40,043 bases of DNA from a virus: positions 1 to 40,043 of IMG/VR virus record IMGVR_UViG_3300025138_000100. One strand, written 5' to 3'. The notes below the pieces were generated by a model that saw nothing but the letters and a program-made list of their open reading frames with translations, made no database searches and had not been told where the DNA came from. Made by a program: the position numbers and the translations under genes. Shown here piece after piece: positions 2 through 17,845 of this stretch (its first letter is position 1; each line of letters begins with the position of its first letter).

Positions 2-256
2 GACGGTAAAATCGAAGAGCCAACAATGTACAGTATTAAAGGTGGTGGTGAGTGGTACGATGCTAGTTATCACGGTATATTAGTTCACAGAGATTATGAG
101 GCTAAAACTGTTAAAGCTAAAGTTTTAAAAGTTAAGTTTCAAAACCTTGGTGAAAATCAAGCCGAAGCACATTTCAAGTGGGAACCGAGATCCGGTTGCT
201 TTATACCAAATGAACCTGTAATAAATAGCGATAATGCCAGCTTACCGTGGGAATAA
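2..256 (+). CDS. Replicative DNA helicase, DnaB/RecA-fold, C-terminal fragment (5' end outside window)
   Basis: The reading frame is open to the left edge, so this is the last 84 residues of a longer protein. The fragment contains GGGEWYDASYHG, then HRDYEAKTVKAKVLKVKFQN and a GENQAE-type stretch. This fits the C-terminal strands of DnaB/Twinkle-like RecA-fold helicases in phages, where a short basic segment (the KQRNG-like element) follows the last core strand. The family role is unwinding DNA at the phage fork, often fused to an N-terminal primase. Neither the primase part nor the Walker A and B motifs are in view. An internal ATG at position 26 could be mistaken for the start, but the upstream codons (DGKIEEPT) read smoothly into the conserved part. 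Its place ahead of nucleotide-metabolism genes fits a replication module. Confidence 0.7.
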   Translation, partial: DGKIEEPTMYSIKGGGEWYDASYHGILVHRDYEAKTVKAKVLKVKFQNLGENQAEAHFKWEPRSGCFIPNEPVINSDNASLPWE

Positions 257-272
257 AAAGAAAGGATCTGGT

Positions 273-512
273 ATGGGACAATACATACCAACTAAAGAAG
301 AATGGATAGCTTGTCGTTGGTGTATACGAAACAACATTAAGATATCACCTTGGGCTAGAGATCAGTCTACATGGTATGTTAGTATTATTATCAACAACGG
401 TAAGAATAACGTTAGTAAAGAGTTCTTTGAGCGAATAGAAATATGGAAAAAGATTCAAGAATATTATATGTATTATTACAAAAAACACAATAAAGATGAA
501 CAAAAGATATAA
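273..512 (+). CDS. Small hypothetical protein (79 aa)
   Basis: I do not recognise a family. The protein begins MGQYIPTKEEWIACRW and is rich in Trp, Tyr, Lys and Ile, with no signal peptide or membrane segment. An earlier in-frame ATG at 234 lies inside the helicase gene. The ATG at 273 is preferred because it follows the helicase stop and has AAAGGA about 8 nt upstream, one of the few Shine-Dalgarno-like sites in the window. The 3' end overlaps the next gene by 17 nt, so the two are probably co-translated. Its position between the helicase and the thymidylate-synthase relative suggests an accessory role in replication or nucleotide metabolism, but this is inference only. Confidence 0.6.
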   Translation: MGQYIPTKEEWIACRWCIRNNIKISPWARDQSTWYVSIIINNGKNNVSKEFFERIEIWKKIQEYYMYYYKKHNKDEQKI

Positions 513-1137
513 CAATGCAAACGAAGCTTACGAAGCTTTATTACACGACGCGATAACGTTAGGTGTAGACTTTGGTGACACTAAAGCTTTGTTTAATTGT
601 GGTTTTTATATAGACAACCCTATAAAGAATCACATAACAAACGCTGAGCGTGACTGGAGCCCTAAATATGCAGCGGCAGAATGGGCTTGGTATTTATCTG
701 GCGACCCTAGTATTAACAAACTAGGAAAACTTTATGGTAAAATACCTCCTATATGGAAACGTATGGCTGATCCAAGTGGTAATGTGAATTCTAATTATGG
801 TTATCAATGGAAACGTAACGATCAAATTGGTTACGTAGTTGATTTACTTAGAAACAACAAAGACACTAGACAGGCTTGTATTTCTATATACGATGGTAAA
901 GAGCATGATAAGTTTGCCACTGATACACCTTGTACCTATGCAGTACAGTTTACAATAATTAATAACAAACTATGTATGTCTGTTTATATGCGTTCTAATG
1001 ACATCTGGTACGGCTTTTGTAACGATCAGTATCAATTTTCAATGTTACAGCAGATGGTTGCAGATATGCTGCATATAAACGTCGGGTGGTACTATCATCA
1101 TGCCCACAACATGCATTTATATAACAACAAACTATGA
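496..1137 (+). CDS. Thymidylate-synthase-family enzyme with Asp177 (candidate dCMP hydroxymethylase or methylase)
   Basis: The 213-residue protein carries the thymidylate synthase core: an active-site Glu in AAEWAWYLSGD (E62), a YGYQW block (101-105), a phosphate-binding Arg in KDTRQ (R125), the nucleophile in TPCTYAVQF (C146), RSND (166-169) and MHLY (H207, Y209). Against E. coli ThyA, which has nearly the same numbering in this part, the residue that reads the pyrimidine 4-position is Asp177 instead of Asn177 (sequence GFCNDQYQF). Asp at this position is the hallmark of T4-type dCMP hydroxymethylase, and the Asn-to-Asp change is known to switch thymidylate synthase toward dCMP. The enzyme would therefore act on dCMP with methylene-tetrahydrofolate, giving 5-hydroxymethyl- or 5-methyl-dCMP. 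The second Arg of the usual Arg-Arg pair is Gln126. The protein is shorter than ThyA (264 aa), ending soon after the HLY motif. The stop overlaps the next start (ATGA). Confidence 0.85.
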   Translation: MNKRYNNANEAYEALLHDAITLGVDFGDTKALFNCGFYIDNPIKNHITNAERDWSPKYAAAEWAWYLSGDPSINKLGKLYGKIPPIWKRMADPSGNVNSNYGYQWKRNDQIGYVVDLLRNNKDTRQACISIYDGKEHDKFATDTPCTYAVQFTIINNKLCMSVYMRSNDIWYGFCNDQYQFSMLQQMVADMLHINVGWYYHHAHNMHLYNNKL

Positions 1138-1958
1138 TATATTATATTTATCACATACCGGGTAAAAAGATCGGTGTAACCTGTGATCTTAATAACCGGG
1201 TTACAAAACAACAAGGCTATAACTCTAATGAGTATGACATACTAGATCAGTCGGAAGATATAGATTATATATCAAACAGAGAGATAGCGTTACAAAAAGT
1301 CTACGGTTACAAAGTAGATAGAAAATTATATAAAAATTTAAAACCAATAACCAATATGAAAATAAATGTCACTGAACAAACGACAACGTTTCCATGTCCT
1401 GTGAATAAGTTAAAAGGACAACTAATGGATAACATCGGTATGAGTTGGAAGACCGAGCATGGAGAGCTAAACGTTACAACACAAACAATAAAGTGGATTA
1501 TGAAAAACGTAAAAACATCTATGTATAACGACAACAGGTGTTACGTATACAATAAAGCTTTTGCTAGGCTTTACGATAACAATAACATGCACGAAACAAT
1601 AACTGGAGGCTTGGCGCCTACAGGTCCAAGATCAATGGACAAAAAACCAGTTATGCTAGACAAAGGAACAATCTTTGATAAAATAAGAGAATGGGCTTTA
1701 GTTAGAGATTTATACGAGCAAGGTGATTCAAACACTCAATATGTTAAGTTTCAAGAAGAAGCTGGCGAGTTAGCTAAAGCATTATTAAAGCGAGACAAAC
1801 CTGAGGTTGAAGACGCTATTGGCGATATAGTTGTTGTGTTAACAAACCTAGCTTATTTAGAAGGTTTTACAATAGAACAATGTATTGAGTCAGCTTACAA
1901 CGTTATAAGTAAAAGAACTGGTAAAATGTCTAACGGAACTTTTGTGAAAGATGAATAA
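1134..1958 (+). CDS. GIY-YIG-like domain fused to MazG-like nucleotide pyrophosphohydrolase
   Basis: This 274-residue protein has two recognisable ends. Residues 1-30 (YYIYHIPGKKIGVTCDLNNR) resemble the first strands and helix of a GIY-YIG nuclease domain, with the usual YIG element degraded to KIGV and the Arg kept (R22). Residues about 180-260 form an all-alpha MazG-like NTP pyrophosphatase domain with EEAGE (208-212) and EDAIGD (226-231) as metal-binding acids, followed by a hydrophobic helix. The middle part (about 70-175) is not recognised; GGLAPTGPRSM at 158-168 may be a linker. MazG-like enzymes hydrolyse (d)NTPs to monophosphates. Next to a dCMP-directed synthase, a dCTP-to-dCMP role is plausible but unproven. 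The start overlaps the previous stop, which suggests translational coupling. Confidence 0.7.
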   Translation: MIYYIYHIPGKKIGVTCDLNNRVTKQQGYNSNEYDILDQSEDIDYISNREIALQKVYGYKVDRKLYKNLKPITNMKINVTEQTTTFPCPVNKLKGQLMDNIGMSWKTEHGELNVTTQTIKWIMKNVKTSMYNDNRCYVYNKAFARLYDNNNMHETITGGLAPTGPRSMDKKPVMLDKGTIFDKIREWALVRDLYEQGDSNTQYVKFQEEAGELAKALLKRDKPEVEDAIGDIVVVLTNLAYLEGFTIEQCIESAYNVISKRTGKMSNGTFVKDE

Positions 1959-2226
1959 AAGAACTATATTATTTAGAGACCCAGTAGTAGAACGTGTAGT
2001 AGATAAATTTGTCAGCAGGTCTGACGTGGGTTTTAAGAAGTACGGAAAAACTCTACACGATGAACGCACAACAGGTATTAAAGATCTTGCTAAGTATCTT
2101 AACGATGTACAAGAGGAGTTGATGGATGCAGTGCTATACATACAGGCTGCACGCGAAGAGATAAGAGATCTCACCGAAGAAGCTATAATTAAATCAATTG
2201 ACATCCATGATGAAGAAGAAATTTAA
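1951..2226 (+). CDS. Small helical protein, possible MazG-like NTP pyrophosphatase relative (91 aa)
   Basis: The protein begins MNKRTILFRDPVVERVVDKF and is predicted to be mostly helical and acidic at its C-terminus. Residues 45-70 (DLAKYLNDVQEELMDAVLYI and onward) look like one half of the all-alpha NTP pyrophosphatase fold, with a Glu-Glu-x-x-Asp metal-binding set (E55, E56, D59). The other paired acidic helix is not evident, so it may need to dimerise or may be only structurally related. Similar small proteins are, to my recollection, common in uncultured marine phage contigs. It overlaps the genes on both sides by 8 and 20 nt and so belongs to the same operon. The function is not established. 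Confidence 0.6.
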   Translation: MNKRTILFRDPVVERVVDKFVSRSDVGFKKYGKTLHDERTTGIKDLAKYLNDVQEELMDAVLYIQAAREEIRDLTEEAIIKSIDIHDEEEI

Positions 2227-2680
2227 AAGAAAAAAAGGTCCAGTGCAGTCAAAGAAGATATCATACGATGGTATCAACTTTGCCTCAGGGCTTGAAAGGT
2301 ATATGTACATGGCGCTACGCAAAGCTAAAATATCAGCTTTGTATGAAGGTCAAACCTTTGAGTTATCTCCACCTTTTGATTTTCAATTTGAATCGTTTGA
2401 ACGATGTGGTAACGGTAAAGGAGAATACAAAAATAGAGGTAATAAGAAAATACTAAACATAAAGTACACACCAGATTTTGTTGGTAAAGGATTTATAATA
2501 GAAACTAAAGGTAGGGCTAACGAGTCTTTTCCACTAAGGTGGAAGTTGTTTAAAAGACTTATAACAGAAAACAGGCTAGGACCTTTAACTTTATACAAAC
2601 CGCAAAACCACAAAGAGTGTGATGAAACAGTTAAATTAATAATTAAAAAACAAAATGAAAATGCAAGCATGGGAAATTAA
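2207..2680 (+). CDS. PD-(D/E)XK nuclease, Holliday-junction resolvase-like (T7 endonuclease I / DUF1064 type)
   Basis: The 157-residue protein opens with a very basic stretch (MMKKKFKRKKG) and then SYDGINFASGLERYMY, which supplies a likely catalytic Glu (E30). The core follows as YTPDFVGKGFIIETKGR, the classical PD...ExK arrangement (D90, E99, K101) of restriction-fold nucleases. Spacing and length resemble T7 endonuclease I and the DUF1064 group of phage resolvases, which cut branched or junction DNA during recombination and before packaging. A TTG codon 9 nt upstream is in frame, but tandem ATGs at 2207 and 2210 are better starts. The gene overlaps both neighbours, including 26 nt with the small gene after it. 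Confidence 0.75.
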   Translation: MMKKKFKRKKGPVQSKKISYDGINFASGLERYMYMALRKAKISALYEGQTFELSPPFDFQFESFERCGNGKGEYKNRGNKKILNIKYTPDFVGKGFIIETKGRANESFPLRWKLFKRLITENRLGPLTLYKPQNHKECDETVKLIIKKQNENASMGN

Positions 2681-2810
2681 CCTAGGACTTATTCCTGGAC
2701 TACTGTTCGGTTTTAGACAGTATGAAGATTATGAAAATAACAAGATAGATTATGTTCTATACATAGGTTGTATAGACGTTTGTTTCACTGCTTATTACGG
2801 GGAAGAATAA
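2655..2810 (+). CDS. Tiny conserved-looking protein between the nuclease and nrdB (51 aa)
   Basis: This short frame starts at ATG 2655 (or 2661) inside the end of the nuclease gene and stops at TAA 2808-2810, so its stop overlaps the nrdB start as TAATG. The product begins MKMQAWEINLGLIPGLLFGF and continues with an acidic middle and a YVLYIGCIDVCFT end. It is hydrophobic at both ends but too short for a confident membrane call. The exact stop/start overlap and complete filling of the space before nrdB support a real gene. I recall similar small proteins with a WEI-LG-PG-LFG pattern in marine phages, but I know of no function. Confidence 0.7.
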   Translation: MKMQAWEINLGLIPGLLFGFRQYEDYENNKIDYVLYIGCIDVCFTAYYGEE

Positions 2811-3778
2811 TGGGGTTATTTGATGAAAGAATACCGTATAAGCCTTTTGAGTACCCTGAATACTATACAGAAGGTTGGTTGAAACAAGCTCAGGCGTTTT
2901 GGTTGCACACCGAAATACCTATGTCAGGAGATGTTAAGGACTGGAATGAGTCTTTAACTATGAAAGAAAAAAACCTAGTGGGAAACATCCTGCTAGGCTT
3001 TGCTCAGACAGAATGTGCCGTGTCTGATTACTGGACACAGAAAGTTGTTGGATGGTTTCCTAAACACGAAATACAACAAATGGCTATGATGTTTGGTTCG
3101 CAAGAAACAATACACGCTGTAGCATATAGTTATTTAAATGAAACTTTAAAATTAGAAGACTATGAAGCGTTTTTACACGAACCTGCGACAGCCGATCGTT
3201 TTGATAACTTGGTTGCTTATGATGGCAACGACACTGTGGGTATCGGAACCTCCCTTGCTATCTTCTCTGCTTTTGCAGAAGGTGTTAGCTTATACAGTGC
3301 CTTTGCTGTTCTTTATTCTTTTCAGCTACGTAATCTACTTAAAGGCATCGGACAACAAATGAAATGGTCTGTGAGAGACGAGAGTCTACACAGTAGAATG
3401 GGTTGTCAATTGTTTAGACAGATGTGTGAAGAAGATAAAACATTGTTAGCAGCTTGTAGAGATGATATAGCTCAAGCAGCATCTACGATGGTTAGACTAG
3501 AAGAAAAGTATATTGACAAAATGTTTGAGATGGGAGATATAGAAGGTATATCTGCTAACGATTTAAAACAGTTTATAAGAAAGAGAGCTAATGAAAAACT
3601 TATTGAGTTAGGTTACCTCGACCTTGGGTCATATTTCGACTACGACGAAGAAGCAGCAAGTAATCTTGATTGGTTCTACCATCTTACTGGAGGTCATACT
3701 CACACTGATTTTTTCGCTGTTAGGTCGACTGACTATAGTAAAGCTAATGAAGGTGAAGATTTTGAAGACGTATGGTAA
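2810..3778 (+). CDS. nrdB: Ribonucleoside-diphosphate reductase small subunit (class I beta)
   Basis: The 322-residue protein is the radical-generating subunit that partners NrdA to make deoxynucleotides. The second metal-ligand pair and the radical tyrosine are clear in QETIHAVAY (E99, H102, Y106), matching E. coli E115, H118 and Y122. The later ligands are in FAEGVSLY (E157) and RDESLH (E191, H194), with the same spacing of 34 as E204 to E238. The first ligand, Asp84 in E. coli, lies 31 residues before E99 and is Glu68 here (AQTECAV). Glu at this site is best known from class Ic enzymes, which lack the tyrosine, yet Tyr106 is present. The start at 2810 overlaps the preceding stop; in-frame codons upstream belong to the small gene before it. 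The protein is shorter than E. coli NrdB (about 375 aa), mostly between helices C and E. Confidence 0.93.
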   Translation: MGLFDERIPYKPFEYPEYYTEGWLKQAQAFWLHTEIPMSGDVKDWNESLTMKEKNLVGNILLGFAQTECAVSDYWTQKVVGWFPKHEIQQMAMMFGSQETIHAVAYSYLNETLKLEDYEAFLHEPATADRFDNLVAYDGNDTVGIGTSLAIFSAFAEGVSLYSAFAVLYSFQLRNLLKGIGQQMKWSVRDESLHSRMGCQLFRQMCEEDKTLLAACRDDIAQAASTMVRLEEKYIDKMFEMGDIEGISANDLKQFIRKRANEKLIELGYLDLGSYFDYDEEAASNLDWFYHLTGGHTHTDFFAVRSTDYSKANEGEDFEDVW

Positions 3779-4028: not shown

Positions 4029-5750
4029 ATGTGGAGTAACAGATGGAAAAAAGGAATAGACTACCCAGAGTGGGCTGAGTCTGATGTGTATAAAAAAACA
4101 ATACAAGGTGGTTACTTATTATACGATGAAACACCTAAAGAAGCTTATCAACGTGTGGCTAAAACAGTTGCAAGACGATTAGATCGACCTGAGATGGCCG
4201 AAACATTTTTTGATTACATTTGGAAAGGCTGGTTATGTCTAGCTTCTCCTGTGTTATCTAATACTGGTACTGATAAAGGTTTACCGATAAGTTGCTTTGG
4301 TATCGATGTTGCAGATAGTATAATTGATATAGGCCAGAAAAACTTAGAAATGATGTTACTGGCTAAACACGGCGGTGGAGTTGGTATTGGTGTTAATCAG
4401 ATAAGACCTGCTGGAGCTAAGATAACTGGTAATGGAACTAGTGACGGTGTTGTGCCATTTTGTAAGATATATGACTCTACAATACTAGCAACAAACCAAG
4501 GGTCTGTAAGACGAGGAGCTGCGTCAGTTAATATAAATATTGAACACCCTGACTTTGAAGACTGGTTAGAAATTAGAGAACCTAAAGGAGATGTAAATAG
4601 ACAATCACTAAACCTACATCAATGTGCTGTGGTCGGTGATAAGTTTATGAGAAAGCTTAGAGATGGTGATAAAGTTTCTAGACGTAAATGGGGTAAGTTA
4701 CTACAAAAGCGTAAAGCTACAGGAGAACCTTATATAATGTTTAAAGGTAACGTTAATAAGAATAACCCTTCGGCGTACAAAGACAACGCTTTAAAGGTAC
4801 ATATGACAAATATATGTAGTGAGATAACTTTACACACAGATGAAAACCACAGTTTTGTTTGCTGTTTATCTAGTTTGAACTTATCTAAATATCATGAATG
4901 GAAGAATAGCAACCTAATATACGACAGTATATGGTTCTTAGATGGAGTGTTAGAAGAGTTTATACAAAAAGCAAAGAACACTAGAGGATTTGAGAACGCT
5001 GTGAGATCTGCTGAAAAAGGTAGAGCTTTAGGTTTGGGTGTAGTCGGATGGCATACTTATTTACAACAGAAAGGTTTACCTTTCGAAGGATTATTAGCAC
5101 AATATGAAACAAGAAGAATATTTTCACAAATCAAAATTGAATCAGAAAGAGCTAGTATGGCTTTGGCTGAAGAATTTAATGAACCGCTTTGGTGCGTCGG
5201 CACAGGTTTTAGGAACACACATCTCAGAGCTATTGCTCCTACTGTTAGTAATAGTAAGTTATCTGGGAATATTAGTCCTGGAATTGAGCCTTGGGCTGCT
5301 AACGTATTTACAGACCAGTCTGCTAAAGGCACGTTCATACGTAAGAACCCTACGCTAGAAAAAGTATTAACTGACAATAACTTAAACAATAAAAAAATAT
5401 GGGATCAAATACTGAAAGACGGAGGATCTATACAGGGCATCAAAGCATTAGAGAAAATTACATTGGGAGATCACGATATACCAGTCAAAGAGGTTTTCAA
5501 AACTTTCAAGGAAATAAATCAACTAGATTTAGTTAACCAAGCTGGTATACGACAACAATATATAGATCAGAGTGTTAGTTTAAACCTAGCGTTTCCTGCA
5601 GAAGCAGAGCCTAAGTTTATAAACAAAGTGCATTTAGACGCTTGGAAGAAAGGTATTAAGACTTTGTATTATATGAGGACCGAATCGGTCTTGAGAGGGG
5701 ATATAGCTGCGAATGCAACTAATGAAGAATGCTTAAGTTGTGACGGGTAA
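4029..5750 (+). CDS. nrdA: Ribonucleoside-diphosphate reductase large subunit (class I alpha)
   Basis: The 573-residue protein is the catalytic subunit of class I ribonucleotide reductase. The redox cysteine pair is C89 in LPISCFG (E. coli C225) and C278 or C279 in FVCCLSSLNL (E. coli C462). The active-site loop is NICSE (N261, thiyl radical C263, E265). Two tyrosines in TLYYMRTES near the end match the radical-transfer Tyr730/731 pair. The protein ends in EECLSCDG, a C-terminal Cys-x-x-Cys for thioredoxin or glutaredoxin reduction. The N-terminal ATP-cone is missing, as the protein begins almost at the catalytic domain, so dATP shut-off at that site is not expected. This suits a phage that needs sustained dNTP supply. 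It is the last gene of the plus-strand block. Confidence 0.94.
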   Translation: MWSNRWKKGIDYPEWAESDVYKKTIQGGYLLYDETPKEAYQRVAKTVARRLDRPEMAETFFDYIWKGWLCLASPVLSNTGTDKGLPISCFGIDVADSIIDIGQKNLEMMLLAKHGGGVGIGVNQIRPAGAKITGNGTSDGVVPFCKIYDSTILATNQGSVRRGAASVNINIEHPDFEDWLEIREPKGDVNRQSLNLHQCAVVGDKFMRKLRDGDKVSRRKWGKLLQKRKATGEPYIMFKGNVNKNNPSAYKDNALKVHMTNICSEITLHTDENHSFVCCLSSLNLSKYHEWKNSNLIYDSIWFLDGVLEEFIQKAKNTRGFENAVRSAEKGRALGLGVVGWHTYLQQKGLPFEGLLAQYETRRIFSQIKIESERASMALAEEFNEPLWCVGTGFRNTHLRAIAPTVSNSKLSGNISPGIEPWAANVFTDQSAKGTFIRKNPTLEKVLTDNNLNNKKIWDQILKDGGSIQGIKALEKITLGDHDIPVKEVFKTFKEINQLDLVNQAGIRQQYIDQSVSLNLAFPAEAEPKFINKVHLDAWKKGIKTLYYMRTESVLRGDIAANATNEECLSCDG

Positions 5751-7006: not shown

Positions 7007-7414
7007 TTAGTAAGCACCTGCTTTTTTAACTTCTTCTATTGATTGTTGTATCTCTTGTAGGTTAGTTGGTAATAACAGATCTAAACCAGCTTTAAATACT
7101 TTTTCTTTTGATCCTTCTTTAAATATTATAATAGTAGGTGCCATACGTACTCTATATTTACTTTTTGCTTCTGGTGCATCAGCTATGTTTACCCTATAGT
7201 AAGGTACATCTAGTTTTTGCCACTCATTAAAGCAATTGACCTTATTAAACTCAGCCCAAAATTCTACTACAACAATATCTTTCTCTTCAAAGCCATCTCC
7301 GTTTATAGCTTTGTCAAAGTTTTCATCTGTTACCCAGTATTTAGCGGGTACATCAGATTGTGCATAGACGTTTATACTTAAAATAAAAATTAAAATAAAT
7401 TGGATTAGTTTCAT
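7007..7414 (-). CDS. Secreted thioredoxin-fold protein without the CxxC active site
   Basis: Residues 1-19 (MKLIQFILIFILSINVYAQ) form a clear signal peptide ending Tyr-Ala-Gln, typical of Bacteroidetes, so the protein should enter the periplasm. The mature part follows the thioredoxin pattern: strand VVVEFWAEF (48-56), then a second strand with PYYRVNIAD, the cis-proline loop RMAPTIIIF (P93) and KEKVFKAGLD. At the position of Trp-Cys-Gly-Pro-Cys it reads F56-N-K-V-N60, followed by a lone C61. The usual dithiol is lost, so ordinary oxidoreductase activity is unlikely; a binding or scaffold role is more plausible. It lies 2 nt after the membrane/coiled-coil gene, within the lysis region. Confidence 0.72.
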   Translation of the reverse strand: MKLIQFILIFILSINVYAQSDVPAKYWVTDENFDKAINGDGFEEKDIVVVEFWAEFNKVNCFNEWQKLDVPYYRVNIADAPEAKSKYRVRMAPTIIIFKEGSKEKVFKAGLDLLLPTNLQEIQQSIEEVKKAGAY

Positions 7415-8935: not shown

Positions 8936-11900
8936 TTACTCACTTTTATATACTTCTGGTTTATATTCTTCAGCTTTATACACTTCTTTAATATATTCTT
9001 TAGCTGTTTGACCTTTTTCATTCATACCAAGAGACCATTCAGTCCAACCTAAGGCTAAGGCAACAGATTGCCAGTCTTCAGTATCTTCATCTAACGCAGC
9101 TTCTATATTGTTGTATTTTTTAAATAATCTATCTAAAGGAACGTTAGTTGTTGCTGATATAATTTGACCACCAGCTAGGTATGCAGGATTGTCTAAACTC
9201 CAACCAGCAGACTTAACTTCTTTCATATCATACTCAAATGTTCTACCAGCAGATCTTAATTTTGATATCTTAGAATCTATAGGCGGAGACATGTCTAATA
9301 TTTTTAAAGCTGAATCAGAATATTTAGGTCTCTTCTTTTTACTTTGTTTAATAGCGTCTTGAACCATACCTTTAACCGTAGCTATAGCAGCGCCTTGATA
9401 ACCCATACCTCTTAGTATAGAGTCTATCATTCCGTTTGCCATGTAACTAGTATCTGATTGTATACCTTCTTCATCATCAAAAGCGTCTCTAAATAATGCT
9501 GTTTGAAGAGCATTGAATATAGCGTTTTGTACCATACCGTAATACATAAGCTTAGACATATTAGTTTTAAAATCTCCTCTACCATTTTTTATATCACTAG
9601 CAGCTTTTTGCATTAACCTAGCGTACTGAGACGGTGTGTTGGCAAATGCAAGAACAACTCTACCCAAACCACTTGCTTGTTGTTGACTTATTCTATCTGC
9701 TCTACTAGACTGTTGAGACTCTTCTGTTAATTCTCTAAAATCTTCAAATGCTTTTTTCTTAGCCTCTGTTTTACTTAAACCTTGTTTTTCGTAGGTTTTA
9801 GTTCTGTTTATATAAAAGGAAGTGCCACCAGACGCTATAGCAAAACTATCAGCTATCTGTGTAAATATAAATCCTTTTTTAAGTATTGTTGCTATAACTC
9901 CTTTTGCACCACCAGCGTTAGCTGCGTCAGCTATTTCATTTTCATTAATATTAATTTTTAAACCTCCACGTCTTTCAATTAAAAAATCTGAGTTAAATAC
10001 TTCTGCAAATGTTTTTGCCCATTGCTTAGGGTTTTTAGCCATTGCTTGCCCTGCTTTTAAAGGGTTGTTGTCGCTCCAGTTTATATAGTTAATTGCTGAT
10101 ATAGTTTGTAGCACAGCCGATTTAGTGTTTAAGAACATAATAGCACCAACTGAATTATTTAACCAGTCTAACGCCATATTTTCTAGTTTACTATCTTTAC
10201 TATTTGCTGGTCTGTTTCTACCAGTCTTCATTCTAAGAAGCATGTTGTCCATTGCTTCTCTCCATTTAGATCCGTAAGCAGCTTCAAGTTTATTCATGTT
10301 TTCTTTAGAAAATATTGTGTTAACATTTTCTGTCCAACCACTTTGTTCTAGGTATTTATCTCTTCTTGTTTCAGTAATACCTTTTAGTATATCTGTGGTT
10401 ATAGTACCTGTTTCCCAACTTTGATTAGGTTTTTCATAACCTTCACCTTTTCCTAAATCAATTAACTCTTGACTAAACTTCATTAATGCAGGTTTAGACT
10501 CTACGTAATCAATCATTGTTTTTAAATCAGCTTTGCTTAAACCAGGTATTTCCATACCTTGCTTAGTCCATGTATGAACTCTAATAGCTTGCTCTACAGT
10601 AAATGGCTCACCAGTTATTTTCTTTCTTAAATCTTTAGGTATACCAGCTTTTACTAGGTTCTTTTTCATTTCTTGAAACTCGTTCATTGTAGAAACCTTG
10701 TCTCTAGATATAGCGTTGTTAGCTGTGTTAAAAGGTTTAGTTAGGTTTTCTTTTACCCAAGCCATATCTTCATTACCTTGTTTACCTTTGCCATATAGTC
10801 TATACATTAAGCCTGTAAAGTCTTGAGCGGAGGATGCTAGTATTTTTATTTTACCAGAATCTTTACCAACGACTTTACCTTTAAAATTAGAGTAGGTTTT
10901 TTCTTTACCTATACCAGTACCTCTTTCTATCATGCTGTTTATATCAGCGTTAAGATCTATGGAGTTAAAAGCTTGTTGAACTTTTGACTTAACATCTATT
11001 ACGCTTAAAACATCTTGAACAGCTTTAACGTTTTTATAAGCATCATCTGTAAAATAAAAGTCATTATAACCTTTAGATGCTTTTTCTAATATCCACAAAG
11101 CTTTAGCTTCTGGTCTACCATCAGCGAGGCCTGTAATGTTTTTTATAGGTATCTCAAGGCCAACACCTTTTAAGAATTTGTGTATAGCAACTGCTGACTC
11201 TTTAGGTCTAGCTGTTAAAACAAACACATCTTTTGTGGTAAACTTGTCTTGTCGCTTTACAGCAAGATCAAACAACGGGCCTTTCTGACCGTCTATCACT
11301 TTATTAAATTCACTAAAGTCGTACTTAGCACCTAACTCTGTTAGTTCAGCATCACGTTTAGCAAACTCAGTAGCGTTTATCTTCATTTTCTTACCGTTAG
11401 GCATGGTAACTATTATCTGACTATTAGTCTTAGCTAACGTGTCATCAAAGTCAAAAACACTTATACCTTTTCTAATTTTGTTTCTTTTCTTTGCTAAACC
11501 AAAAGCCATATCAATCTCACCTAACTTCTGCATTATTTCGCCATTAGTTAGGGTTTTAGAGTTGAACACTCCTTTAGGTAAATCTTTAATTAAATTTTTT
11601 CTAATTTTATTAATTTGATCTACAGTCTTACTAGCATTCATTTCTATTTCAATAAGCTCTTGATACGTTTTACCTGTTTTAGCATCTACTATTAAACCTA
11701 GTTTAGTTGCGTATAGGTAGTTAGCTTTAGCTGACAAATCCGTGTTATAACCATCTTTGTATATATTACTAGTGTTACCACCCTCTTCCTTACTATCAAT
11801 AAACTTTTGCAGCTCTTTAGGTATTATGCTTTGTTTAAACTGTTTTGATAACGCATCAAAGTTTTTATTAAACTCCGCTTTAGATCCAGCGTTCTTCATC

Positions 11901-14900
11901 ATATTGATTAAGAAGTTACCATTGAAGTTCATTACTTGAAGCTCATGCTCACTATACATTTTGCCTTTTTGCAAAGTAAAGGCAGTGTGAGTGGCTAGAG
12001 ATCTTGAAAAACCACCACCAATACTTGTCTGCGCCTGAAGTAAAAATTGTATTTGATTAATAGCGTTAATTTTATCTGCAGATTTGTTGTAAAAATCAAA
12101 CAATTTACCGTAAATATATTTTTGTAAACCTTCGTTAGCTTTTATAGTTTGTTCCATTGTTACAGGTCTAACCGCATCATCATAAGCTTTCTTAGTTATC
12201 TTTCCGTCTTTTAATTCTTTACCTAGCTCTTTAATTCTTTTCTTTGTCAAGCTAGGTGTTAAGTACTTGTCAGTTATCATTTTAAAAAACTCTTGTCTAG
12301 CTTTAGGATTGTTGATCAAGTCTCCTGCTTTTTCAAGCTCAACCATGTACTTGTCTCTTAAAATCTTGTTGTCCATTGTTTTGACATGGTCTATATTAAA
12401 TGGTAGTTTTTCAGCTTTACCTTCGCTAGTAAACCTATCAACTACTGATACATAGTTTTCACCATTAAACTTGTAAGAACCATCACCATAACTTTTTTGC
12501 ATTAAAGGTTTCAACCTTGGATCCATAGTGTCCATAAGGTCATTAACAAACTCAAAATATTTTTCACTATTTTTAACTTTACTTGTAATAGTGTTGTTTA
12601 TTGTTAACCTGCTTAAATCCTCTGGTGATATGTTTTCTTTAGATAATATATCTATTATGTCAGTGTTTATGTTTTTAAATCTATTCCATATCTTAGGGTT
12701 AATGGCTTGTATCTTTAATTGCTCTAGTTTTCTTAATGCTTGAGCTCTAGCTTGTAGTTCTTTTATAGCATCAGGACCTACGTTGTAACCTTTTTCACCA
12801 AGTAGTATTTTCTCGTGTTTTTCTATTACTTCTTTTTCACTTTCAGTCATACTCATTTTAACCGCGTAAAAAGCTTTAGATATGTCATTAAACTTACTGA
12901 AGTCTGTCCTTTTAAACTTTCCCATAAACTTATCCCAAGTAGCTAATTCTTTTGATTGAAACTTATCAGGAGTTGCACCACGTATAGCTTGTTTGATATA
13001 AGGCATAACGTTGTCCGCTTTTAAGTTTAAAAACTTATTTAAGTCTTTAGCCTTTATAAGATCTTGAACTCTAGGATCACTAAGTTTGTCTCTAGTTATT
13101 TGACTTGAAGCAACTTTAGCTTTTCTATTAAAATACTCTACAATGTTTTTCTTAATAACAGTATTATCTCTACCTGTGAAAACAACTTTATTTAACTCTC
13201 CTTGTTTGTAAGTGTTTTTGTTATACTTATACGTTCTAGCATTTGTTTCTAAGAAGTCAGGCATCTCACTGCTTTTAAACTTTTCATTAGTTTTAGTAAA
13301 TAAACTAGCGTATACACTTTTGTTTATATTACTAGCCTCGTACATTTCTGGGTTAGATGTTTTTTCTATACCTTCAAATGCAAGCTCTTCGTTTTTATCA
13401 AACCACTCTCTTGCAACCTCAACATATTTTGCTGGTTTCATTTTAGATGTTAAGCCAATACTTTCTTGCAAGTCTGTAGATAATTCTTTTTGCATTGTCT
13501 TGGCTATGTTTTCGTAACTTAATTTTTCAACAGGTAGGTTTTCAATAACGTCAGGTACTTTAGAGGTGTACTTGTCTGTGCTTATATCATAAACTTCGCT
13601 AACTCTAATAGGAAAATTGTATTCTTTACCATCGATGATAACTTTTTTGTCTACTTGTTTTTTCTCTGTGTTAAGCACAAAGTCAGTATAACCAGTTCCA
13701 GCCCTGTTTTCTATAGCTGTTTTTAATTCCGGGCTTGCATCATAACTAATCTCTTGATAAAGATCTCTGTCTGATTTACCTTTGTCTAAACTACCACCTT
13801 TTAATTCATATATTCTTAACTGCAACGTTTGCATTACAGTTTTAGTTAAATTTTGTTTGTTCTTATAACCTTCATTTACAGCGGCTTCTTTAAACACATC
13901 ACTACCTTTTGGAGCGCCATACTTTTCTTCAAGCTCAAATATTCTTTGTTCTCCAAGTTTTTTATCTCCAAACTTATCCCACAAAGCAAACTTACCATCT
14001 TTATCGGTAAACGTCTTTCTGTTGTCGTAGTCTTTTATTATTTCTTTTAAACCTCTAGCCTTGTTACCTTCTTTTAAATTAAGGTTATAAACTAACTCAG
14101 TAGCCAACATGTATCTATCTGTAGGGTTAAGCACTTGTTGTTCGTATTGCCCCATTTTTATTCTACCAGCGTTGTATCTATCTATAGTATTATAAACTAT
14201 ATCATCAAAATACTTACCAGCTACAGAAGTTCTATTGCCTGGAGTAGGTTTAGTAAACATATCAACTAACGTATTCATATCTACATTGCTAGCTTTTAAG
14301 TCATCAAAAGTTTTTTGCGTATTAGCTGATCTTGTTTTTAGCTCTTGAGAGTTAAAAGCCATATCAACTTCCATTTCAGCTTTCTTTTCAGGTGTTCTAG
14401 CGTCATAAGTGTTAGGCTCAACAAACAAGCTTTGCTTGTCCATGTTTTGAAACTTATTTATTTGATTTTGGTTTAATGTACCAGACTTAACGCTTTCTGC
14501 AAAATTATACATAAACCTAATTAGCTGGTCTTTATTACCTATATCAAAATCAAACTTACCTTGCTTAGTCATAAAGTCTTTAAACTTTGTTTCAGTGTTT
14601 TTAAACACACCCTTATCAACAAGTATTGCGTAGTTTCTTGGATCAGATAAAAGCTCAGCAGCGTAAGCAATATACTCATGTGCTTGAAGGTTTTTACCCT
14701 TGTAGTTGTTTCTAATAAATTCACCTAACGTTTGCTTACCTAGCTGATTCTTACCTTTGTTTGTACCCATAACACCACTAGCTACACCACTTCCATCATT
14801 TATATAGAATTGCTGTTTGTCAAATATTTGTTGAAGCTGAGCTTTCATTTTTACAGCTAGTTGTGGGTTTTTTTCAAAAGTCTTAACCATAGCTACATGT

Positions 14901-17845
14901 ACTATTTCATGTGGTAGCTTACCAGGTGACGCTTTAGTTGTGTTTACATATATAGCGTTTTCTTTTACGCTAAACTCTGCTGCAGCGTCTTTATCACCAA
15001 CCCATTCTGGTGGTGTTTTACCTGCTATGACTTTAACGTTTGGAAATAAATGCTTTATGTTTTGCATAGATCTCTCTACCATTTTAGTGGCTTTACCGCT
15101 ATCTTGCCAGTCGTTGTGTTTTAGTATTGTATTCAACCTACTATTAACACTAACAAACAACTCAGCAAATTTCTTTGTTTCGTTTTTAATGCTTTCTTTT
15201 CTAGCTTCTAGTTCAGCTCTATTTAGTTTTTTACCGCCTAACACAAAATCATTTTTAACTTGACCTCTAACACGACTGTTAAGTAGCTTATCTATAGTGT
15301 TTATCTTTCTATTAGCATCATCCATAACTTTAGCTGATTCACGCTCTAAAGTTTCTAAACCTTTCCACCACGTAACATTACCTATCTTTTTGTCAAAAGT
15401 TGGTCTATAGTTTAATCTACCTTCTTTAGTTGCAAAACCTTTAATTCCTAACGAAGAAAATACGAAAAAATCTATTAAACCACCTTTAGCGTGTTTACTT
15501 AAGTGAAACTCATTGTTTTCATCAAAATAGGTGTCTTGAACATAAGTAGCATAGTCTTCATTACCGGCTAAATCTCTTACGGCTGCTTCTAAGTTTGCGG
15601 CAACAGGCACAGATATCATACCTGCTAAACCACCTTTACCATGTATATTTACTGCTGTATTTAATAGGTTAGACCCGCTAGCAAATTTTAATTTACCAAG
15701 CATTTTACCAACAGAGTAAAAACCAACACCACCACCCATGTGGTAGTGCTCGTCAAAAGCTATTTTCATTTTAGCCTCTTCATACATAGCCATACCAGTA
15801 AAAGCTGTTGTGTTTGCTATTGCTCTACTTGTTCTAACACTTGCTCCAGAAGCTCTTAAAGCTTTATAAGCTCTGGTCCCAAGTTTTGGTATACCAGTTA
15901 AAAGCCCTGTTTTTTTAGCAGCTACATCTATTAAAGCAAACTCTACTAAAGCTGGTACAAAACTAGAAACACCTTCAGCAACCTCATACGGAATGCTTCT
16001 TGTTATTTCTTGTCTCATTTCTTCGGTATTAACTATATTACCGTTTTGATCGTGTAAAGACTGTAGTATATCTTTTTCTTTTCTATTACTCCAATTTATA
16101 TCTGTACTTTCAGTATTTAACCATTGTTCAGATTCCATACTGAAACCTTCAGTTACAAGCTCTGCTTGTCTTACAAAAAAATCTTCTGTTTCTTGTAAAA
16201 TTCCTTCTTTCTTTGTAGCAGGGTTTATATTAAGAAGATGCATGTCTGTAAGAACTCCTCTTTCTGCTATTAACTGTTTTTTGTTATCTCTAAAATCTCT
16301 AAGCATTAGCTTAAAGTTTCTACTTTTATCATCAGCACCAAACTCAGATTCTGTTGCAGATGTTCCTGAAAAAGGAACATAATCCCAAATACTATTAGGA
16401 TCGTTATACTCTTTGTTTTTGTCAGTTAAACCAAAGTAACCGGTTTTAGATTTAAAATTACTATCTTTACCAACAGAGCTGCCTGTTCCACCGCCTCTAC
16501 CCATTAATGCGGACATTTCTTGTGGGCTCATACCTAGGTTTTTACCAAACTCTTCAAAAGATCTTTTGTACCGATCCTGCTGTAGGTTGTTTAGCTTGGC
16601 ACCTGCTATTAAATCACTACCACCAGTGTTTCCCTCTACAATAGTGCTATAGTATTGGCCTAGTACGTCTTGAGGTAAGTCATATTCAAATCCTAGGTCG
16701 TTTTTACCTGTTGGAGAATAACCTAAGTTGTGTAGTAAAACCCAAGCCGAAGCGTCGTTTACGGTTATACCATGGTTTTGTTTACCTACTTCTTGGTGAT
16801 AAAACAAATCTCTACTGTTTTTATTAAAAATATTTTCTATGTGATCTGCTTGAGTACTTTCTGTTAATTCACCACTCTCTATTTTACTTTTTATTTCTGC
16901 AATTTCTTCTGAGCTTATATCAAAACTGTTATCCGCGTCATCGTCTCCATCTATTTTAGTGCCAATAACCGCACCATCCCAAGATACATATTGGTTTTTA
17001 GTTTCTAAAATATTACCGAAGAAACCACCAGAAGACTCAAGTAGTTCTTGAACAGTTTTTTCCTGCTTTAATATATCTGCTTTTTGTTGTGGAGTTGATA
17101 CACCTTTTTTTCGTAGATCACGTAGTGTAGTTTGTGCTTTTGCAAGTTCTTGCAATTCTGGGCTCAATGATTTAACGGTGGTGTTAAGCTGGTTTGCCTC
17201 AACAGCTTCGTCTGTTAGATCGTTTTCTATTATTATATTGTCGTATTCTTTTTGTTCTAGTTTTAATCTTTTAGCTATTTGAATACTAGCTTTTCCTTTA
17301 ACCACATCTCTAATCATTAAATCAATGTCTTTTTCTTGTAAAGGACTATCTTCAATGTTAAACTGGGCCTTAGTTGCTTTTGCTAAGTTTTTGTATAAAT
17401 CATCATTACCTTGTGACTTCATACTTAAATGCTCCCAATTTATATCAGTATTGCCAATAGCGTTTTTAACGTTAGTATCGTTAGATAACCACATTGACAT
17501 AGCTTCTTTAGTAGTAGAGCTAGACTCTATCCACTCTGGCTCACTTTTTCTTGCTTTTTCTTTTTCTTTATAGCTGTTAGCTTGATCTTTTGATACAGGC
17601 CTATAACCACCCACTATAGGTAAAGAAGCGCCTCTCATTGGGTTGGCTAGTGTTGCTTTTGTTGCTATTCCAATAGTGTCTAAAAAACTTAGTTTTTCTT
17701 CTTCTTCTTCTTCTTCTTTAACAGCACCGTTATCAGCAATGTATTGTGTTTTAAACTCATCAACTGTCAAACCTAAGTTTGCCGCTCTTGCCGATAAATC
17801 TTCTTCGCTATCTATAGTAATACCGTTTTTAGTTATATATGGCAT
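8936..17845 (-). CDS. Giant internal virion / polyvalent protein (2969 aa) with zincin and HAD-phosphatase motifs
   Basis: At 8.9 kb this gene fills over a fifth of the window. Near the N-terminus there is a poly-Glu run (44-50). Glycine/alanine-rich, partly hydrophobic stretches occur at about 618-760. A metallopeptidase-type HEIVH lies at 979-983, preceded by NAIYVNTTKASPGKLP. A HAD-hydrolase domain spans about 2125-2275, with DFDDT (D2132, D2134), VLTARP (T2211) and YFTDDA (D2267, D2268). The C-terminus is Lys/Glu-rich with EVYKAEEYKPEVYKSE. The size, position after two smaller internal-protein-like genes, and mixed enzymatic domains match the large polyvalent proteins that phages carry in the capsid and inject with DNA. 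Such proteins take the place of T7 gp15/gp16. Inferred role: ejection and early host takeover. Most of the chain has no recognisable domain. Confidence 0.8.
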   Translation of the reverse strand: MPYITKNGITIDSEEDLSARAANLGLTVDEFKTQYIADNGAVKEEEEEEEKLSFLDTIGIATKATLANPMRGASLPIVGGYRPVSKDQANSYKEKEKARKSEPEWIESSSTTKEAMSMWLSNDTNVKNAIGNTDINWEHLSMKSQGNDDLYKNLAKATKAQFNIEDSPLQEKDIDLMIRDVVKGKASIQIAKRLKLEQKEYDNIIIENDLTDEAVEANQLNTTVKSLSPELQELAKAQTTLRDLRKKGVSTPQQKADILKQEKTVQELLESSGGFFGNILETKNQYVSWDGAVIGTKIDGDDDADNSFDISSEEIAEIKSKIESGELTESTQADHIENIFNKNSRDLFYHQEVGKQNHGITVNDASAWVLLHNLGYSPTGKNDLGFEYDLPQDVLGQYYSTIVEGNTGGSDLIAGAKLNNLQQDRYKRSFEEFGKNLGMSPQEMSALMGRGGGTGSSVGKDSNFKSKTGYFGLTDKNKEYNDPNSIWDYVPFSGTSATESEFGADDKSRNFKLMLRDFRDNKKQLIAERGVLTDMHLLNINPATKKEGILQETEDFFVRQAELVTEGFSMESEQWLNTESTDINWSNRKEKDILQSLHDQNGNIVNTEEMRQEITRSIPYEVAEGVSSFVPALVEFALIDVAAKKTGLLTGIPKLGTRAYKALRASGASVRTSRAIANTTAFTGMAMYEEAKMKIAFDEHYHMGGGVGFYSVGKMLGKLKFASGSNLLNTAVNIHGKGGLAGMISVPVAANLEAAVRDLAGNEDYATYVQDTYFDENNEFHLSKHAKGGLIDFFVFSSLGIKGFATKEGRLNYRPTFDKKIGNVTWWKGLETLERESAKVMDDANRKINTIDKLLNSRVRGQVKNDFVLGGKKLNRAELEARKESIKNETKKFAELFVSVNSRLNTILKHNDWQDSGKATKMVERSMQNIKHLFPNVKVIAGKTPPEWVGDKDAAAEFSVKENAIYVNTTKASPGKLPHEIVHVAMVKTFEKNPQLAVKMKAQLQQIFDKQQFYINDGSGVASGVMGTNKGKNQLGKQTLGEFIRNNYKGKNLQAHEYIAYAAELLSDPRNYAILVDKGVFKNTETKFKDFMTKQGKFDFDIGNKDQLIRFMYNFAESVKSGTLNQNQINKFQNMDKQSLFVEPNTYDARTPEKKAEMEVDMAFNSQELKTRSANTQKTFDDLKASNVDMNTLVDMFTKPTPGNRTSVAGKYFDDIVYNTIDRYNAGRIKMGQYEQQVLNPTDRYMLATELVYNLNLKEGNKARGLKEIIKDYDNRKTFTDKDGKFALWDKFGDKKLGEQRIFELEEKYGAPKGSDVFKEAAVNEGYKNKQNLTKTVMQTLQLRIYELKGGSLDKGKSDRDLYQEISYDASPELKTAIENRAGTGYTDFVLNTEKKQVDKKVIIDGKEYNFPIRVSEVYDISTDKYTSKVPDVIENLPVEKLSYENIAKTMQKELSTDLQESIGLTSKMKPAKYVEVAREWFDKNEELAFEGIEKTSNPEMYEASNINKSVYASLFTKTNEKFKSSEMPDFLETNARTYKYNKNTYKQGELNKVVFTGRDNTVIKKNIVEYFNRKAKVASSQITRDKLSDPRVQDLIKAKDLNKFLNLKADNVMPYIKQAIRGATPDKFQSKELATWDKFMGKFKRTDFSKFNDISKAFYAVKMSMTESEKEVIEKHEKILLGEKGYNVGPDAIKELQARAQALRKLEQLKIQAINPKIWNRFKNINTDIIDILSKENISPEDLSRLTINNTITSKVKNSEKYFEFVNDLMDTMDPRLKPLMQKSYGDGSYKFNGENYVSVVDRFTSEGKAEKLPFNIDHVKTMDNKILRDKYMVELEKAGDLINNPKARQEFFKMITDKYLTPSLTKKRIKELGKELKDGKITKKAYDDAVRPVTMEQTIKANEGLQKYIYGKLFDFYNKSADKINAINQIQFLLQAQTSIGGGFSRSLATHTAFTLQKGKMYSEHELQVMNFNGNFLINMMKNAGSKAEFNKNFDALSKQFKQSIIPKELQKFIDSKEEGGNTSNIYKDGYNTDLSAKANYLYATKLGLIVDAKTGKTYQELIEIEMNASKTVDQINKIRKNLIKDLPKGVFNSKTLTNGEIMQKLGEIDMAFGLAKKRNKIRKGISVFDFDDTLAKTNSQIIVTMPNGKKMKINATEFAKRDAELTELGAKYDFSEFNKVIDGQKGPLFDLAVKRQDKFTTKDVFVLTARPKESAVAIHKFLKGVGLEIPIKNITGLADGRPEAKALWILEKASKGYNDFYFTDDAYKNVKAVQDVLSVIDVKSKVQQAFNSIDLNADINSMIERGTGIGKEKTYSNFKGKVVGKDSGKIKILASSAQDFTGLMYRLYGKGKQGNEDMAWVKENLTKPFNTANNAISRDKVSTMNEFQEMKKNLVKAGIPKDLRKKITGEPFTVEQAIRVHTWTKQGMEIPGLSKADLKTMIDYVESKPALMKFSQELIDLGKGEGYEKPNQSWETGTITTDILKGITETRRDKYLEQSGWTENVNTIFSKENMNKLEAAYGSKWREAMDNMLLRMKTGRNRPANSKDSKLENMALDWLNNSVGAIMFLNTKSAVLQTISAINYINWSDNNPLKAGQAMAKNPKQWAKTFAEVFNSDFLIERRGGLKININENEIADAANAGGAKGVIATILKKGFIFTQIADSFAIASGGTSFYINRTKTYEKQGLSKTEAKKKAFEDFRELTEESQQSSRADRISQQQASGLGRVVLAFANTPSQYARLMQKAASDIKNGRGDFKTNMSKLMYYGMVQNAIFNALQTALFRDAFDDEEGIQSDTSYMANGMIDSILRGMGYQGAAIATVKGMVQDAIKQSKKKRPKYSDSALKILDMSPPIDSKISKLRSAGRTFEYDMKEVKSAGWSLDNPAYLAGGQIISATTNVPLDRLFKKYNNIEAALDEDTEDWQSVALALGWTEWSLGMNEKGQTAKEYIKEVYKAEEYKPEVYKSE
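17696..17716 (-). repeat. (GAA)7 codon repeat encoding a poly-Glu run
   Basis: Seven uninterrupted GAA codons (TTC on the plus strand) encode Glu44-Glu50 of the giant virion protein. A pure trinucleotide run is prone to replication slippage in steps of one residue, so its length may vary between relatives. All seven codons are identical although GAG was available. Confidence 0.9.

Follow-up and report, generated by a model that had tools for sequence, protein, structure and literature searches.

A predicted deoxycytidylate 5-hydroxymethylase in an exchanged gene slot of uncultured aquatic phages

The window (the whole stretch of DNA analysed here) comprises 40,043 bases and comes from an uncultured virus, IMG/VR record IMGVR_UViG_3300025138_000100. 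Near its left end, between a primase-helicase and a MazG-type pyrophosphatase and upstream of ribonucleotide reductase, is a gene slot occupied by a relative of thymidylate synthase (TS). The gene, predicted to encode a deoxycytidine monophosphate (dCMP) 5-hydroxymethylase, and the codons that matter most for its assignment are:

496..1137, + strand: TS-superfamily enzyme, predicted dCMP 5-hydroxymethylase; 213 amino acids (aa), ATG start, C-terminal tail absent
790..798, + strand: codons Ser99-Asn100-Tyr101, the Ser-x-Tyr signature (Ser94-x-Tyr96 in T4; PMC6400193)
922..924, + strand: codon Asp143, three residues before the catalytic Cys, a hydroxymethylase signature (Asp145 in T4, Leu in TS; PMC6400193)
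931..933, + strand: codon of the catalytic Cys146 (from the alignment)
1024..1026, + strand: codon of the residue that reads the base, Asp177 (Asp179 in T4 dCMP hydroxymethylase, Asp186 in MilA, Asn in TS; alignment, PMC6400193, PMC5175136)

An open reading frame (ORF) for a TS relative had been placed at exactly these coordinates in a preliminary description made from the sequence letters, and that placement holds to the letter. The protein does belong to the TS superfamily, matching Pfam Thymidylat_synt at 1.5e-27 and the PHROG thymidylate synthase family at 2.4e-43. General databases label it just "thymidylate synthase". With 418 relatives in viral contigs the ORF is not a product of chance, and its shortness is a family trait rather than a truncation, since 78 of 81 homologous proteins are also 213 aa long. 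A truncated or frameshifted TS was considered and rejected: the homologues end at the same place, and the "stop inside" flags raised for the gene reflect a Pfam model that extends beyond its stop codon.

When the window protein is aligned (MAFFT) with E. coli ThyA and T4 gp42 as references, Glu58, Cys146, Arg166, Ser167, Asp169, His207 and Tyr209 of ThyA are found to be kept and Asn177 to be replaced by Asp (the numbering of the window protein coincides with that of ThyA over residues 146-209). The earlier alignment by motif, with its Asp at 177, is upheld; no Asn is seen at the base site. What distinguishes dCMP hydroxymethylases from TS has been specified in a study of the T4 ternary complex: an Asp three residues ahead of the catalytic Cys, which activates water; a Ser-x-Tyr motif, which holds the proton-abstracting water; an Asp at the base site; and absence of the TS C-terminal tail (PMC6400193). 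All four hallmarks are present in the window protein, as D143-T-P-C146, S99-N-Y101, D177 and a chain that ends at the HLYNNKL strand; the TS-type tail is likewise absent from all hydroxymethylase-type homologues. Ser99, Tyr101, Arg125, Asp143, Cys146, Thr147, Ser167 and Asp177 are invariant in an alignment of 52 non-redundant homologues reaching down to 53% identity, and Asp177 occurs in 136 of 136 aligned slot hydroxymethylases, some of these loci being repeat fetches. The equivalents of Ser167 and Arg125 switch the CMP hydroxymethylase MilA from CMP to dCMP, while hydroxymethylases acting on deoxyuridine monophosphate (dUMP) carry Asn at 177 (PMC5175136). In viromes selected for modified cytosine, TS positions 177 (Asp) and 147 are those most tied to modified contigs, and a PRA-PH pyrophosphohydrolase domain co-occurs with the TS genes of such contigs (PMC8670742).

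It is thus very probable that the product of this gene is a phage dCMP 5-hydroxymethylase acting like T4 gp42. That dCMP would be the substrate had been proposed earlier on the strength of Asp177; Asp143, Ser99-x-Tyr101, Thr147, the Ser167/Arg125 pair and the missing C-terminal tail all lend support to the proposal. The same features decide what had been left as "5-hydroxymethyl- or 5-methyl-dCMP": the first of these products is predicted and the second is set aside. The earlier reservation that Asp177 might be a lineage trait unaccompanied by dCMP activity now appears unlikely, in that all three types of enzyme found in the slot (described below) have Asp177 while their nearest outside homologues have Asn.

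The reaction would run as follows. Glu62 would aid the opening of 5,10-methylene-tetrahydrofolate (THF), Cys146 would attack C6 of dCMP, and Asp177 would read and protonate the cytosine ring. Ser99 and Tyr101 would position the water to which the proton of C5 is lost; a second water, activated by Asp143, would add to the exocyclic methylene, yielding 5-hydroxymethyl-dCMP and THF. The absent C-terminal tail would leave the site open to water (TS seals its site for hydride transfer). Outside the active site, the adjacent MazG-type pyrophosphohydrolase probably converts deoxycytidine triphosphate (dCTP) to dCMP, which would at once lower the normal nucleotide and supply the substrate; kinases would then raise 5-hydroxymethyl-dCMP (hm-dCMP) to the triphosphate, to replace some or all of the dCTP in phage DNA and confer protection from host nucleases.

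T4 gp42 (PDB 1b49, 1b5d, 6a9a) shares with the window protein the equivalent of Asp177, the catalytic Cys, the Asp three residues before it and the Thr after it, the Ser-x-Tyr motif, the Glu, the lack of a TS tail, and the motifs MRSND..GF.ND and NSNYG; it differs in that identity is only about 26% and that some 30 further C-terminal residues are missing from the window protein. Among isolate relatives, Bacteroides phages have the gene annotated as a dCMP hydroxymethylase; one of them, BF486P2, has a protein annotated (no more than annotated) as deoxycytidylate 5-hydroxymethyltransferase (WAX06796) that is 43% identical over the full length and shares the motifs GFCNDQY, DTPCT and NSNYGYQW; the phage and the gene neighbourhood are different, and its genome encodes one more copy, which is more distant. 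The AlphaFold model has the TS-superfamily fold, and its matches among solved structures, MilA and the T4 enzyme included, speak for the assignment (scores below). All features of sequence and fold that were examined place the window protein, by prediction, in the T4-type dCMP hydroxymethylase group; those that define ThyA, MilA and the dUMP hydroxymethylases are lacking.

What other enzyme might it be? Asp177 alone is enough to convert TS to dCMP methylation (work of Liu & Santi and of Hardy & Nalivaika, cited by PMC8670742), so that one can imagine an enzyme in which Asp177 picks dCMP and the methylene is reduced by THF hydride to give 5-methyl-dCMP, as in phage Xp12. The hydride transfer of TS needs the site-sealing tail that all hydroxymethylase-type homologues lack, and the Asp at Cys-3 and the Ser-x-Tyr are hydroxymethylase residues where TS has Leu and Val-Tyr; a dCMP methylase is accordingly quite improbable. 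An ordinary dUMP-specific TS whose Asp177 merely reflects lineage drift would be in keeping with the superfamily, with the frequency of TS genes in phages and with the failure to detect the alternative synthase ThyX in any of 50 long related contigs. This explanation is highly improbable: Asp177 is invariant and common to all three slot types while their nearest outside relatives have Asn, and, beyond Asn177, the window protein has Leu changed to Asp at Cys-3 (residue 143) and His147 to Thr and lacks the C-terminal tail. Further differences from ThyA are Pro92-Val93 to Ser-Asn, Trp83 to Met and the absence of Arg21.

MilA (PDB 5b6d, 5jnh) also has a base-reading Asp and is the best match to the window protein in both sequence and structure, which might suggest a CMP hydroxymethylase; a dUMP hydroxymethylase like SPO1 gp29 is a related option. 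Both are highly unlikely. The ribose-selecting Lys133 and Ala176 of MilA correspond in the window protein to Arg125 and Ser167, as in deoxyribose enzymes (the very pair that switches MilA to dCMP), and dUMP hydroxymethylases are defined by Asn at 177 (PMC5175136) where the window protein has Asp. In length, too, MilA and the window protein differ, MilA being larger by 100 aa. There is finally the truncated, inactive TS remnant, suggested by a length of 213 aa where the E. coli enzyme has 264 and by a Pfam match that runs on beyond the stop codon when the sequence is read through. The length shared by the homologues, the invariance of the catalytic residues and an AlphaFold model that is confident throughout (pLDDT 92) make a remnant extremely unlikely.

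To return to the T4-like dCMP hydroxymethylase: four observations weigh against it. 1) In sequence and fold the T4 enzyme is equalled or surpassed by MilA and several TS. Searched with Foldseek against solved structures, the model finds MilA best (TM score 0.91, as against 0.73 for the T4 enzyme), and a family-profile ranking of solved structures places MilA at 4e-26, followed by one TS and then by T4 dCMP hydroxymethylase at 2e-22; the assignment consequently rests on residues and not on overall similarity. 2) T4 depends on an hm-dCMP kinase of its own, and no protein of the thymidylate kinase family was detected in 50 long contigs of related phages. 3) No DNA polymerase of family A was detected in the same 50 contigs, and none of family B or of the Pol III alpha type in 16. 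4) The proteins scanned from the window and its close relatives include none with a named glycosyltransferase or carbamoyltransferase domain, except that a few relatives have a rare GT29-like gene; specifically, no named glycosyltransferase appears among the proteins scanned from G001, the closest near-complete relative (60 kb, loci L085-L087). In other words, the searches found in the relatives of the window neither a kinase nor a dedicated DNA polymerase nor the DNA glucosyltransferases of the T4 system. (A technical note: the controls for the kinase, polymerase and ThyX searches were positive in known genomes; the contigs may be incomplete, and the searches covered these families only.) Host kinases and the host polymerase, or unrecognised phage proteins, would then have to handle hm-dCMP and its triphosphate hm-dCTP, and this is the weakest link of the proposal. 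On the side of the proposal, isolate relatives of the gene in Lactobacillus phage ATCCB and Enterococcus phage VPE25 adjoin annotated beta-glucosyltransferases.

The rare GT29-like gene belongs to a four-gene cassette (JmjC_2/cupin, cupin, PHROG 28018, GT29-like) that follows the large ribonucleotide reductase subunit in some relatives (L065:9635-11475, L081:13908-14720 and others); the Pfam GT29 model itself detects only one GT29-like gene. The cassette was seen in 12 loci of the first set, all with hydroxymethylase and several near the clade of the window, and is absent after position 5750 in the window itself. The cassette could decorate hydroxymethylcytosine or the cell surface. A hydroxyl-decorating cassette tied to the hydroxymethylase was considered and rejected for want of numbers: the JmjC gene is present in 3 of 44 long hydroxymethylase contigs and in 0 of 42 with the other slot enzymes.

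The genes around the slot enzyme in the window are the following:

2..256, + strand: C-terminal end of the primase/helicase (PHROG), the upstream boundary of the slot; 98.8% to the 572-aa gene of G001
234..512, + strand: small conserved ORF between primase and slot enzyme, without an assigned function; in 66 of 81 sources
1134..1958, + strand: nucleotide pyrophosphohydrolase with a MazG/PRA-PH-type C-terminal domain and a GIY-YIG-looking N-terminus; candidate dCTPase
1951..2226, + strand: small 91-aa protein with a MazG-like EEL.DAVLY motif, no family name; in 134 of 139 hydroxymethylase loci
2207..2680, + strand: DUF1064/Holliday-junction-resolvase-like endonuclease (Pfam/PHROG), a conserved neighbour
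2810..3778, + strand: ribonucleotide reductase small subunit (Pfam, 7e-56)
4029..5750, + strand: ribonucleotide reductase large subunit (Pfam, 1e-91)

The gene order is conserved in 80 viral-contig relatives: ligase, DNA-binding protein, helix-turn-helix protein, sigma-like factor, ERF annealase, exonuclease, primase-helicase, small ORF, hydroxymethylase, GIY-YIG-looking/MazG protein, 91-aa MazG-like protein, DUF1064 nuclease, and the small and large subunits of ribonucleotide reductase. The MazG gene adjoins the slot enzyme in nearly all loci; its product in the window matches PHROG MazG-like at 4e-30, Pfam MazG at 1.5e-5 and PRA-PH, the domain family of the virome study above, at 6e-4 (just under the cut-off). 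That this protein hydrolyses dCTP to dCMP and so feeds the slot enzyme is probable; in T4 the corresponding hydrolysis is done by gp56. In one related locus with a slot enzyme of type C, described below (L278, from 758 onward), slot enzyme and MazG form a single 495-aa ORF, which is either a real fusion or a sequencing error; if real, it would join both functions in one protein. The 91-aa neighbour does not switch together with the hydroxymethylase, as had been considered: it is present beside all slot types.

What makes the locus more than a new home for a known activity is that its central gene is exchanged. The occupant of the slot in relatives is one of three: the hydroxymethylase, or a full-length TS-like protein of type A (LPPCH, about 275 aa) or type C (LPPCY, about 260 aa). 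A scan with the MazG neighbour yielded 58 slots with hydroxymethylase, 18 with a TS-like gene and 4 with no match (most of the 4 cut by contig ends). Mapped onto the phylogeny of the upstream primase (105 rows), the slot type requires at least 20 changes; if only well-supported primase branches are counted, the minimum is 7 changes for hydroxymethylase, 8 for type A and 5 for type C, each taken separately. On the MazG tree the change between hydroxymethylase and TS-like requires at least 5-6 steps. Primases that are 99.3% identical carry types C and A, and primases that are 94.2% identical carry type A and hydroxymethylase. The number of changes on the two trees and the different occupants beside nearly identical primases imply that the exchange is both recent and recurrent. 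No published account of it was found in the literature searched, the coverage of which was incomplete.

Throughout these exchanges Asp177 stays. For type A it is seen at every one of the 55 slot loci, whereas Asn177 is the rule in all 24 viral TS genes that come next in similarity, which lie outside this neighbourhood; type C has it in 104 of 104 typable loci beside the MazG gene (one is untypable, and some are repeat fetches of one contig), and 7 of 7 distant TS genes elsewhere have Asn177. The TS genes of phages outside the lineage comprise 7 with Asn and 1 with Asp (AP013540, an uncultured marine phage); that of B40-8 was not parsed. A residue held constant in a slot whose enzyme is replaced is presumably one that matters, which argues that the locus serves cytosine modification and not thymidylate supply; this is the strongest single argument. 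Types A and C otherwise keep Leu143, Val/Ile93 and the TS tail, and in having the TS scaffold, His or Tyr at 147 and Asp177 they resemble the engineered N177D/N229D TS and the dCMP methylase of phage Xp12 (the latter by description only), which serve as models for these two types and not for the window enzyme. By that analogy types A and C are predicted to be dCMP methylases that make 5-methyl-dCMP. Each forms one clade; a joint clade was not rejected (approximately unbiased test, p 0.845), and Asp177 may have arisen either once or twice in A and C.

The Asp-bearing gene of AP013540 (L391; GLPYD), an uncultured marine podovirus, lies in an unrelated context, adjoining genes annotated as dTMP kinase, NTP pyrophosphohydrolase and dCMP deaminase; the group is possibly another cytosine-modifying set. 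Contig G006 (IMGVR 3300047157_000162, 129,537 bases; L008, L101) contains two related phage genomes, one with a hydroxymethylase slot and the other with a full-length TS-like gene of type A at the same place; it is probably two viruses joined in assembly. The latter gene was considered as a canonical TS and rejected as such, having Asp177 as well (GLPYD); in L101 it is frameshifted relative to L104-L106.

On balance we favour, with some reserve, the view that a large lineage of aquatic phages maintains a slot dedicated to C5 of cytosine, in which a hydroxymethylase and two TS-scaffold 5-methyl-dCMP enzymes with a natural Asp177 are swapped in situ, so that replacement of one gene would switch the DNA base between 5-hydroxymethylcytosine (5hmC) and 5-methylcytosine (5mC) while MazG and ribonucleotide reductase are kept. 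Taken as an enzyme, the window protein adds one member to a group already known; the exchanged slot, with its two predicted methylase types, is the new part. If the view is correct, related phages change their modified-cytosine chemistry by a single-gene swap and retain the genes of supply. T4-like phages and Xp12 are the main source of what is known about cytosine modification in phages. The system carried by these hundreds of uncultured aquatic phages looks minimal by comparison: of what T4 would lead one to expect, neither the glycosyltransferases nor the kinase nor the polymerase was found. One can think of close relatives that have nearly identical replication genes and different slot enzymes as a natural experiment on the benefit of 5hmC versus 5mC against host restriction. 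A further gain is a set of rules by which dCMP hydroxymethylases, predicted dCMP methylases and ordinary TS can be told apart from sequence.

The N-terminus of the 1134-1958 protein resembles a GIY-YIG nuclease motif (YYIYHIPGKKIG...), for which there is no Pfam call. In T4 the GIY-YIG homing nuclease segA adjoins b-gt and gene 42. If the neighbour of the slot is a nuclease of the homing type, it could be what drives the repeated exchange.

The host is likely to be flavobacterial, in that relatives of the terminase occur almost only in phages of Flavobacterium, Cellulophaga, Tenacibaculum and Maribacter (and in one unassigned spring phage); eight matches in bacterial genomes are all to contigs of metagenome-assembled genomes with mixed labels. 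Elsewhere in the window, 8936-17845 (- strand) encodes a 2,969-aa virion-region protein with a HAD-like motif (VFDFDDTLAKTNS), which is two proteins in the closest relative, and 7007-7414 (- strand), among late genes, encodes a thioredoxin-like protein whose N-terminus looks signal-like. At L085:3632-5197 (- strand), and in relatives, there is a gene for a GroEL-like protein (about 521 aa, recognised by eye); groEL is also annotated, along with a 10-kDa chaperonin, in the related record MW202828. Finally, a related contig of 71,510 bases (G036) has the hydroxymethylase gene near both ends (1552 and 69097), which implies a genome unit of about 67.5 kb.
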